Shown: in pieces, positions 42,415-46,053 of the stretch
How the letters are laid out: every line of letters starts with the position of its first letter
Numbering within the stretch: the first letter of the stretch is position 1
Source of the DNA: Acidimicrobiia bacterium
GTDB lineage: Bacteria > Actinomycetota > Acidimicrobiia > IMCC26256 > JAGNEX01
DNA length: 46,053 bases
Assembly (NCBI GenBank): GCA_018003035.1
Contig: JAGNEX010000019.1
Location: forward strand, 1-46,053
Direction of reading: 5' to 3'
Notes under the pieces: model-generated
Told to the model about the DNA's origin: nothing
What the model saw: the letters and a program-made list of their open reading frames with translations, nothing else
The model's database searches: none
Translations under genes and position numbers: made by a program

Positions 42415-44070
42415 CTAGTTGGCTACGACAAAGGTTCTGGTCACCCAGGCGCTGGCGTTTCCGGCAGCATCGAGGGAACGGACCTGAAGCCTGTAACGCC
42501 CGTTGGGCAGCGACATGGTCGCCGACTGCCAAACGTCGCCCGTGATCGTCGTGGTCAGGACCGACCATGCCCCTTGGGTTAGGTCGGATCGCACCCATTG
42601 GCCGGTGTCCCGGTTTCGGACTGCGAGTTCGACCTTGCCGAGGGCCCGGTCATCGCCTGCGCGACCACTGATCTGGAACGACCCTTTCACGGTGGCGTCG
42701 ACCGCCGGAGCTTCGACCGTCACCGTCGGCGGAACGGTGTCGGGCGGCGGTGGCGGCGCTCCGAGGTCGTGAAACGAGAAACGGCCGGTGTTGATCCAAG
42801 CGACCTTGTCACCGTCCATTCCGTGCAACAGACCTCGACTTGTCACCTCAAGGTCGTACGAACCAATGCGAGACGTCGTCTTTGGGTTCCACGGCAGTGC
42901 CGCGCCGGTTGCCGGGTCGAGCGCAGCGATCTGGTAGCGAGCGGCAACCCCGGCGGTGTCGACATTGTCGTTCGCGCACCTGACAGGCTTGTCTGGCCAC
43001 TGGATCGTTGCTGCTTGACTGGTCGGAATCGGCCCCATCGGTCGTACGAAACAGAAGTGACCACCGACGTAGAAGGCGGCGGCGCTCGCCCCTACCGACA
43101 ACACGGAATCATGCATCTGGTCAACCCAAAGGTTTTCTTCGAAGCCTGGTCCGTCAGCGGTCGGGAACGCGATTGCCTTGTCGCAGTTGTATCCGCCCTT
43201 CTCTACGACGACGAAACGGCTCCCATCGGGGCTGAATTCGGCGTCGCGGATCTGGAGGGAAGCAACCGTGCAGCGCTTGTAGGCAACCTCGTACCACTTG
43301 GTCTGCCAGGGCAACAGCGAGTTGGTCGAGATGTCGACCAGCCCAACCGCTGCTCGGGGCTGCCCAGCGATATAGAGCGAGTTGTGCGCAACCAACAGAG
43401 TCTTGCCATCGGGGTGTAGGTCGAGTGACTTGACCGCGCCGCTCGTTCCGCGGGGGCCGACGGCACCCGTTACCGGAAGATCGAACGCCGTATCGACCGC
43501 TCCGGTCTTGGCGTTCAGCGCTGCCAACATCGAACGGGGAGTCCCGCTAACCGACGTGAACGAACCGCCAATGAACAAGCGACCTGCATGTTCTTGGATG
43601 GCGAGAACCTTCGCCGATGGCGATGCCTTGAATCGTGTGTTGACCGAGCCGTCAGGGTTGAGCTTCGCGATTCGAACGGCCCATTGACCATCGATCTTGT
43701 TGAAGCTGCCACCGATAAAGACAGCGGAGCCGTCTTCGGAGGTCCTCACTACTTCCACGTCACCGTTGACCGCGTGCGTGAACCCGGGGATGATCTGACC
43801 TGAGTCCAGGTCAAATGCCACCAGGTTCGCTTGAGGCACGACGGTTCCATCACGGAGCGTGAGACTCGTGAAGTTGCCACCGAGTACAGCTATATTGCCT
43901 ATTTGAGCGACCGAGTTCACACGTCCATCATTGATAATTGGCAGGTCGTTGCGGGGGACCTCGGGCACAAGCCCGCCTTGAGTGGCGGCCTCAGCCGAGC
44001 GAAAACCTGCGGTCAGAAGCCCGAAAGCTACCAAAAGCGTCAAAAGCACCAGGGCGCTCCGACGCCACAT
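42415..44070 (-). CDS. Secreted repeat (beta-propeller-like) protein with C-terminal Ig-like domain
   Basis: 551 residues from ATG 44070 (MWRRSALVLL), chosen because AGGAA lies 4 bases upstream and a standard signal peptide follows (cleavage near SAEA-ATQ); upstream ATGs at 44091 and 44139 are also open. The mature part has recurring blades with V-L/F-IGG-x-F motifs (AVLGGNF, AVFIGGSF, LFIGGSF, FYVGGHF) spaced about 40-130 residues, as in delta-60/propeller repeat proteins. A Pro-rich linker (APPPPPDTVPP) leads to a roughly 100-residue Ig/Big-like domain (ISGRAGDDRALGKVELAVRN) ending TRTFVVAN. No sorting signal. Probably an extracellular or wall-associated binding protein. Confidence 0.85.
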   Translation of the reverse strand: MWRRSALVLLTLLVAFGLLTAGFRSAEAATQGGLVPEVPRNDLPIINDGRVNSVAQIGNIAVLGGNFTSLTLRDGTVVPQANLVAFDLDSGQIIPGFTHAVNGDVEVVRTSEDGSAVFIGGSFNKIDGQWAVRIAKLNPDGSVNTRFKASPSAKVLAIQEHAGRLFIGGSFTSVSGTPRSMLAALNAKTGAVDTAFDLPVTGAVGPRGTSGAVKSLDLHPDGKTLLVAHNSLYIAGQPRAAVGLVDISTNSLLPWQTKWYEVAYKRCTVASLQIRDAEFSPDGSRFVVVEKGGYNCDKAIAFPTADGPGFEENLWVDQMHDSVLSVGASAAAFYVGGHFCFVRPMGPIPTSQAATIQWPDKPVRCANDNVDTAGVAARYQIAALDPATGAALPWNPKTTSRIGSYDLEVTSRGLLHGMDGDKVAWINTGRFSFHDLGAPPPPPDTVPPTVTVEAPAVDATVKGSFQISGRAGDDRALGKVELAVRNRDTGQWVRSDLTQGAWSVLTTTITGDVWQSATMSLPNGRYRLQVRSLDAAGNASAWVTRTFVVAN

Positions 44071-44148
44071 TACGTTCCTAACAACAAGCATGTATATGTC
44101 CCAATATCGTCGGATCACCGGGATGACCCGAGCCCGCAATTAACCAAA

Positions 44149-44255: not shown

Positions 44256-45158
44256 ATGCAGCCCGCGGCAGAAGCTCCGCTCAAGATCGCCGACGCCGAA
44301 CGACTCCTACGAGCGCAACATCCAGATCTTGCGGGTCGGCCACTTCGCCCAGCTGGGGAAGGTTGGGACAACTTCGTGTTCCGCCTGGGTGACGACTTGG
44401 CGATCAAGTTCCCCCGGACATCTGCCGTTGCCGAACACCTCAAAGTGGAGTGGCGCTGGCTTCCCCAGATCTCGGCTGGCCTTCCCGTCGAAGCACCGTT
44501 GACGATCCGCCGTGGACGACCGGACCTGGGGTACCCATTTCGCTGGTCCGTGGTCAGGTGGATCCCAGGCACAGCGGTCTGGGACCTGTCGGAAGCCGAG
44601 ATCGAGAGCCTCGCTCGTTCAGACGCCTGCGCCGTGATACTCGCCGACCTTCTTACCGGCCTCGGCGAAGTGGCCCCGTTGGCAGTGCCGAGCAACCCCT
44701 ACCGGGGCTGCACGCTTCGGGAGCGACGGCAGCGCACCGCCGGTGACTTCACCAGGGCACAACAAGCGCTCCCCGACCCGACGGGCTGGTCCTGGGCTGA
44801 GCTTCATCGGCTGTGGCAGATCGCCCTGGCCACACGGCCGGCACAGCGGTGCCGGTGGTGTCACGGTGACCTACATCCCGGCAACGTCATTGCGTCGCAA
44901 GGCGCCTACACAGGACTGGTCGACTGGGTAGACCTTGCAGCGGGAGACCCGGCGGTCGATCTGGCGGCGGCATGGTCCATGTGCGACGCCGACCGCCGAC
45001 GTATCGTGGCTGAACGAACCGGCTTCTCTGAACGACGCTGGCAACGCGCCCGCGGCTGGGCAATCGCGCTTGGTCTCGCCTATCTGGTGAATAGTCGCCC
45101 TGAGACTCCGCTCAGGACGACCGGCATCCGTCTACTCAGCAATGTCTCCGCCGATTAA
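44256..45158 (+). CDS. Aminoglycoside phosphotransferase (APH)-family kinase
   Basis: 300 residues with the protein-kinase-like APH fold. Candidate ATP Lys51 (LAIKFPR), catalytic loop HGDLHPGN (203-210, Asp205) and metal-binding Asp223 (LVDWVDLAAGDP). N-terminal segment GEGWDNFVFRLGDDLAIKFP is typical for chromosomal APH-like small-molecule kinases. It need not be a resistance enzyme; choline, homoserine, macrolide or other hydroxyl substrates are possible. The 3' end overlaps the convergent exosortase-like gene by 27 bases. Confidence 0.85.
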   Translation: MQPAAEAPLKIADAERLLRAQHPDLAGRPLRPAGEGWDNFVFRLGDDLAIKFPRTSAVAEHLKVEWRWLPQISAGLPVEAPLTIRRGRPDLGYPFRWSVVRWIPGTAVWDLSEAEIESLARSDACAVILADLLTGLGEVAPLAVPSNPYRGCTLRERRQRTAGDFTRAQQALPDPTGWSWAELHRLWQIALATRPAQRCRWCHGDLHPGNVIASQGAYTGLVDWVDLAAGDPAVDLAAAWSMCDADRRRIVAERTGFSERRWQRARGWAIALGLAYLVNSRPETPLRTTGIRLLSNVSAD

Positions 45159-45734
45159 CGCAGGCTGCGGGTCCGATGCCGCACCGGGGCGCCCTTTGAG
45201 CAGGATTCGGGTGGCAACACCGCAGGCGAGACCGACCGACAGCATCGACAGCGGCACACCGCCGACATCGTGGAACGCTGCCATGGAGTCAAGGCCCCGA
45301 TAGACGCCAACCAAAATGGTGGCGGTCATTCTGGCGAGGTTGACAAAAAAGAGGACCGCCGAGCCGACCAGCAACGCTGTCAGAATCCGACGGCTAGAAC
45401 CCCTACCCAACCGAGAAACGGCCAGACCCAGAGCGACCGCCAAAGGCGCCGCGGCCGAACACGACAGGGTGATGATCGCCCTGAACGGCGCACCGTCAGC
45501 AGGCAGGATCGCCACCGTTTTGGTCGTGGGGTTTATGTAAAGGTGGGCGTCGGTCAGCGCCTGGACGATGCCGCCAGCCAGACGAGTTTCGACTTCACGG
45601 TCCAGGTCGGCGAGTAAGTAGAACGCTCCAACACCGACCACCAGACCGAACAGTGCGGAAAGAACCGTCACCACCACGGGGCTCATGCGGCTGCGGGCAG
45701 GACGTACACCCTCGCCAACCAGGACCGAAGCCAT
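45132..45734 (-). CDS. Exosortase/archaeosortase-like membrane cysteine protease
   Basis: 200 residues with about five or six hydrophobic segments (near 20-41, 85-107, 117-143, 160-178). The family's three catalytic positions are visible in order: Cys92 (LSCSAAAP) at the periplasmic end of a helix, Arg135 (NLARMTATI) and His155 (FHDVGG). These enzymes cut proteins at a C-terminal motif-helix-basic tail signal and transfer them, often to a glycan or lipid anchor. It lies 4 bases after a gene whose product has such a tail, a dedicated pair. The subfamily is not assigned. An inner ATG (residue 17) is an alternative start. Confidence 0.82.
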   Translation of the reverse strand: MASVLVGEGVRPARSRMSPVVVTVLSALFGLVVGVGAFYLLADLDREVETRLAGGIVQALTDAHLYINPTTKTVAILPADGAPFRAIITLSCSAAAPLAVALGLAVSRLGRGSSRRILTALLVGSAVLFFVNLARMTATILVGVYRGLDSMAAFHDVGGVPLSMLSVGLACGVATRILLKGRPGAASDPQPALIGGDIAE

Positions 45735-45738
45735 GTGA

Positions 45739-46053
45739 CTACACCTCGCTTACAGAGCGACGCTTCGCCACGGCCACCGCGCCTGCTCCGGCGACTGCGA
45801 CAGCCGCGATGCCAGCAACCGGCGATGCTGATCCCAGCATGTTGGCTGGCTTGGTGATGCAGGTCTCTTTGGTCGCGGCGGTGATTTTCTCTTTGCCGAT
45901 AAACCAAGTAACCGCCGGGTCGGTCGCCGTGACGACGAACTGCCCAGAACCAGTAAACGTAGTGGGCTGACCCATGTCACCCATTCCGTCGCCACCCGGC
46001 GACATCGCATTTTCCGCGGGGATGGGATACGTCTCTGTTCCGGTCGCGGTGTA
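45739..46053 (-). CDS. Putative exosortase substrate, C-terminal part (5' end outside window)
   Basis: The frame runs from the window edge (46053) to TAG 45739-45741; 104 residues are visible. A beta-rich extracellular part (TTFTGSGQFVVTATDPAVTWF) with one Cys (TCITKP) is followed by MLGSASP, an 18-residue Ala/Val helix (about 79-96), and KRRSVSEV. This motif, helix, basic tail layout is the C-terminal sorting signal of exosortase targets. Only the C-terminus is seen, so size, signal peptide and role are unknown. It immediately precedes the exosortase-like gene in one operon. Confidence 0.78.
   Translation of the reverse strand, partial: YTATGTETYPIPAENAMSPGGDGMGDMGQPTTFTGSGQFVVTATDPAVTWFIGKEKITAATKETCITKPANMLGSASPVAGIAAVAVAGAGAVAVAKRRSVSEV

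Follow-up and report, generated by a model that had tools for sequence, protein, structure and literature searches.

Sorting signals at protein C-termini usually reveal themselves through varied protein bodies that share one type of tail and lie near one type of enzyme. In the PEP-CTERM/EpsH system (XrtA type), the enzyme carries a Cys together with the motifs Asn-Xaa-Xaa-Arg and His-Xaa-Xaa-Xaa-Gly (PMC1569441), and archaeosortase A (ArtA) of Haloferax volcanii processes the motif-helix-basic tail of PGF-CTERM proteins, which become lipid-attached (PMC9263693). The genes of single-target sorting enzymes, as in the rhombosortase/GlyGly-CTERM system, tend to lie next to that of the target (PMC3237569).

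The gene pair described here lies at the end of a 46,053-nucleotide contig of an Acidimicrobiia bacterium (hereafter the window, meaning this whole stretch of DNA). It has in common with PEP-CTERM/EpsH the Cys, Asn-x-x-Arg and His-x-x-x-Gly residues, a tripartite substrate tail and a link to polysaccharide genes; however, EpsH has eight or more membrane helices whereas the window enzyme is only 200 residues long, and Cys-x-Gly and a PEP motif on the one side contrast with Cys-Ser-Ala and no PEP motif on the other. The superfamily signature and the motif-helix-basic tail are likewise common to archaeosortase A, but there the third catalytic residue is Arg253 rather than His155, the motif is different, and the window has one adjacent substrate. 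The side-by-side arrangement recalls rhombosortase and its target, although rhombosortase belongs to an unrelated serine protease family.

We also compared the pair with the models for exosortase P, the XrtP-associated glycosyltransferase and the choice-of-anchor P proteins (NF012139, NF053846, NF040603), as well as for exosortases R and S (NF012138, NF033767). Like the branch to which the window enzyme belongs, these are short exosortases of similar length with an adjoining GT2 gene, and a choice-of-anchor P substrate also occurs in one locus of the window branch (G567, 130 bits). In contrast, the window protein and the relatives checked fall far under the subfamily cut-offs, the window-branch clusters add ATP-grasp, WecB and often PIG-L genes, and their tails fail the known CTERM models. 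A further cluster, in G144 (L028:2003-5239), is of the XrtP/R/S-like kind: it comprises a small LAATG protein, an exosortase, an XrtP-type GT2 (514 bits, the cut-off being 520) and a choice-of-anchor P protein whose tail reads MEGLPIVGG. It is a sister system that narrowly misses the NCBIfam cut-offs, and its P-[VI]-x-G tail motif is similar to that of the window branch.

The exosortase and its neighbour in the window

On sequence grounds, the two genes form a dedicated pair of exosortase and substrate, with a non-PEP signal, that belongs to an unnamed actinobacterial exosortase subfamily; cleavage of the substrate is predicted. The 200-residue protein matches TIGR04178, the NCBIfam exosortase/archaeosortase signature, with a score of 35.7 bits (cut-off 23; E = 7.9e-9), which places it in the family. 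It scores just under the gathering threshold of Pfam Exosortase_EpsH (PF09721; 22.2 against 25.7), gives no match to TIGR02602, and stays below the cut-offs of XrtP, XrtR and XrtS (24.3, 24.9 and 17.3 bits against 200, 150 and 145), such that no named exosortase subfamily among the NCBIfam models fits it. An alignment of nine exosortases with 23-28% identity to the window protein (A1), all of them matched by TIGR04178 at E <= 0.01, shows that S91, C92, S93, N132, R135, H155, D156 and G159 are invariant. Thus, both the exosortase-like order of Cys92, Arg135 and His155 noticed in the initial annotation and the family assignment made there hold for the protein and its homologues. The AlphaFold model is helical and of membrane type (helices 19-60, 95-109, 114-146 and 148-180; mean pLDDT 76); Foldseek found no similar solved structure in the PDB, and a sequence search for one returned a single poor match. 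In the exosortase tree the enzyme forms a long, weakly placed branch.

The upstream protein ends four bases before the exosortase ATG (45735-45738), as had been annotated. Its C-terminus reads ETCITKPANM-LGSASP-VAGIAAVAVAGAGAVAVA (18 residues)-KRRSVSEV, in agreement with the short motif, helix and basic tail described initially (Table 1). Since the window spans an entire contig (G000:C63), this gene is cut and only 104 C-terminal residues are left; the contig end overlaps no other contig of the assembly, and the 5' end of the gene was therefore not recovered. No substrate sequence was found at the end of contig C70, which carries a GT2 gene. Related substrates start with sequences that, by eye, resemble signal peptides; the N-terminus of the window substrate lies beyond the contig end.

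Two other genes lie nearby. An aminoglycoside phosphotransferase-family (APH) gene (44256-45158, plus strand) is convergent with the exosortase gene, the 3' ends overlapping by 27 bases, and the gene at 42415-44139 (minus strand) encodes a secreted protein that combines DUF5122 beta-propeller repeats with a bacterial Ig domain and has no C-terminal sorting tail.

Table 1. Coordinates of the exosortase gene, the candidate substrate gene and their features within the window
Feature	Position	Strand	Basis
Candidate substrate, 3' part of gene (104 aa)	45739..46053	-	Reading frame open at contig end
Most of substrate ectodomain (GQP-x-x-F ... W domain, to conserved Cys65)	45859..46053	-	Alignments A4, A5
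LGSASP, motif of the initial annotation; final Pro is the only conserved residue	45820..45837	-	Tail alignment
SPVAG, window form of the P-[VIL]-small-small motif	45811..45825	-	Tail alignment A3 and background count
18-residue Ala/Val/Gly hydrophobic helix	45766..45819	-	Sequence
Basic tail KRRSVSEV	45742..45765	-	Sequence
Exosortase-family gene, 200 aa, ATG start	45132..45734	-	TIGR04178 match; AlphaFold helices
Cys92 codon (SCS), proposed nucleophile	45459..45461	-	Invariant in alignment A1
Arg135 codon, within N132-x-x-R135	45330..45332	-	Invariant in A1; EpsH Asn-Xaa-Xaa-Arg motif (PMC1569441)
His155 codon, within H155-x-x-x-G159	45270..45272	-	Invariant in A1; EpsH His-Xaa-Xaa-Xaa-Gly motif (PMC1569441)

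Gene clusters and tail proteins in related genomes

Exosortase homologues were present in nine of the 395 genomes sampled from the same class, the window's own counted, and one more was found elsewhere in the phylum (G567). A contig scan with the window protein alone as query gave no matches, and with alignment A2 the contig of G012 (L027) was the sole match; alignment A1 contained no stretch of sufficient conservation for such a scan. The nine other loci of the branch have the order GT2 - exosortase - ATP-grasp - WecB-type epimerase (the available contig stretch of G567 stops before any WecB gene could show), with the GT2 and exosortase genes overlapping or abutting. A PIG-L deacetylase gene lies upstream in six loci (G012, G009, G049, G106, G226, G567), and a HEAT-like protein, recognised by eye, is often encoded between the exosortase and the ATP-grasp gene. 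Pfam confirmed PIG-L and ATP-grasp in one locus apiece and NCBIfam confirmed GT2, the remaining assignments having been made by motif or by eye.

A protein with a motif, helix and basic tail is encoded near the exosortase in all nine other readable loci, that of G106, which is transcribed away from the cluster, being less certain; the linkage between enzyme and tail protein is therefore conserved. Six of these proteins (G012, G024, G049, G106, G226, G567) came from a scan for a C-terminal helix followed by a basic tail, that of G009 from reading the locus, and those of G035 and G039 as weak substrate matches (E 7e-5 and 1e-3 in the 395 genomes) directly upstream of the cluster GT2. Other weak matches, in ribosomal protein L7/L12, glutamyl-tRNA synthetase and further proteins, were read and rejected as chance. 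In the relatives a GT2 gene, and sometimes also PIG-L, separates substrate and exosortase, whereas in the window the exosortase follows the substrate directly. The adjacency expected of such a pair is thus direct in the window and recurs elsewhere as linkage, usually with genes in between. Because the pairing recurs within the sugar-polymer cluster of distant relatives, we regard it as a branch, real though without a name, of an already known protein-sorting family.

The window enzyme is the only clear exosortase match in its own genome, in a search blind to more divergent exosortases. No second protein with the tail or the ectodomain was found in this assembly, which is 93% complete, so the system looks single-target; further tail matches outside the window were rejected, as they are not C-terminal signals. 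The ATP-grasp protein of the relatives was not found in the same 93% complete assembly. On contig C11 of this genome (L080:5544-7065), which carries no exosortase gene, the gene for a 73-residue LAHTG protein lies 7 bases before a GT2 gene that scores 290 bits with the model for the XrtP-associated glycosyltransferase (cut-off 520).

A conserved motif at the start of the tail helix

The proteins that carry the tail differ in their bodies. One small ectodomain, marked by GQP, is common to the window substrate and its homologues in the clusters of G035, G039, G024 and G009; G012 and G049 share a second, G226 and G106 have others, and the substrate of G567 is the choice-of-anchor P protein already mentioned. 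Such unlike ectodomains, with a common type of tail and a single type of enzyme nearby, constitute the usual signature of a sorting signal. Furthermore, the GQP ectodomain was found in five of the 395 class genomes, all five exosortase-positive (hypergeometric p 1.6e-9, an optimistic value because these genomes also trained the ectodomain model, four of the five, besides the window's own, having been used in building it).

Across eight aligned tails (A3), only one Cys and one Pro are invariant. The Cys, upstream of the motif, is present in nine of ten tails and absent in G106, and the Pro opens a short motif, P-[VIL]-[GASP]-[GAST], at the start of the helix. This pattern occurs in 9/9 tails (G106 included) and in 8/296 helices of other proteins in the examined loci, and P[VI] alone in 8/9 and 36/296, respectively, a contrast inflated by the fact that the pattern was set on the very tails counted. 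The motif reads PVAG in the window, PVGG in G035 and G226, PIAA in G039, PVSG in G024, PVGT in G012, G049 and G567, and PLAG in G106. The tail of G009, left out when the pattern was set, has PITG (within MPITG) and matches only on condition that the third position admits Thr. LGSASP, initially put forward alongside the residues before it as a possible recognition motif, is consequently conserved only in its final Pro, with LGSA varying freely; what is conserved is the P-[VIL]-small-small motif bordering the membrane, together with the upstream Cys. None of the tails contains a PEP motif, the LGSASPVAG of the window included, in line with the earlier expectation of a non-PEP signal.

Extra copies of the ectodomain lie away from the cluster in G035 and G039 (L070, L071, L072). 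In two of them Cys-x-x-Asn-Pro-Val-Pro-Ile precedes a helix at the end of the protein, and the third (L072) has a further extracellular region in place of such a tail. As far as these sequences indicate, the tail acts like a suffix that can be removed.

Proposed sorting reaction and alternative explanations

The tail of the neighbouring protein is probably cut off by the membrane enzyme of the window. By analogy with known systems, the exosortase would recognise the P-[VIL]-small-small motif at the outer end of the substrate helix (PVAG here), Cys92 would cleave at or near it with the participation of Arg135 and His155, and the new C-terminus would be handed to an acceptor. Taken as a whole, a dedicated sorting pair with PVAG recognition, Cys92 cleavage and transfer is very probably the best explanation, and the dedicated actinobacterial pair proposed at the outset is borne out by the signature match, the conserved residues, the recurring tail neighbour and the single tail protein in the genome.

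The neighbour could instead be a plain C-terminally membrane-anchored surface protein, or the substrate of a classical class E sortase, with the exosortase acting on another target. The tail does match sortase-signal models weakly (best 15-16 bits, LAETG 15 and GVDTG 16, under cut-offs of 29-30), and the small LAHTG protein elsewhere in this genome passes the LPXTG model; but the window tail has no LPXTG-type motif, tail proteins recur beside the exosortase branch on differing ectodomains, and the GQP ectodomain is restricted to exosortase-positive genomes in the sample, all of which makes this explanation improbable. More doubtful still is a role of the exosortase-derived protein in glycan export or assembly with the GT2, the secreted protein being merely a linked partner. 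The fixed GT2-exosortase order of the relatives would suit such a role, and EpsH was once proposed to be a flippase or polymerase; however, EpsH disruption in Methylobacillus left the polysaccharide unaffected (PMC1569441), the catalytic residues are invariant, and the window exosortase has a tail protein yet no GT2. It is least likely of all that the pair is a decaying relic, no longer functional after losing its ATP-grasp and GT2 neighbours: while the lack of an ATP-grasp match in the 93% complete assembly and the long exosortase branch fit decay, the intact reading frames and catalytic residues, the tight 4-base spacing and the presence of an XrtP-associated-type GT2 on contig C11 argue against it.

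To our knowledge, the acceptor of bacterial exosortases has not been established. Under the sorting-pair explanation, a sugar polymer or glycolipid is the acceptor towards which the cluster of the relatives (GT2, WecB-type epimerase, ATP-grasp and often PIG-L) points. PIG-L adjoins GT2 and exosortase at L050, L052, L053, L054, L055 and L056, an arrangement that invites a hypothesis of GPI-like anchoring. As a speculation, the presence of PIG-L next to a GT2 and a putative transpeptidase hints at a glycan that bears an amine: PIG-L would expose the amine, and the cysteine transpeptidase would attach the protein after removing its C-terminal hydrophobic signal. We regard it as unlikely that the GT2 indeed makes a glycolipid or glycan which, once de-N-acetylated by PIG-L, bears the amine to which the exosortase joins the substrate, as a bacterial, non-homologous counterpart of GPI anchoring.

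Systems of this kind are already known; in the resources searched, this branch and its signal seem not to have been described, and our literature search returned no paper joining 'exosortase' and 'Acidimicrobi-'. With relatives that lie among GT2, WecB-type, ATP-grasp and, in many cases, PIG-L genes, a small single-target exosortase makes enzyme, substrate and a likely acceptor pathway accessible together in one compact system, and the pair adds a non-PEP signal to the list of actinobacterial sorting signals.
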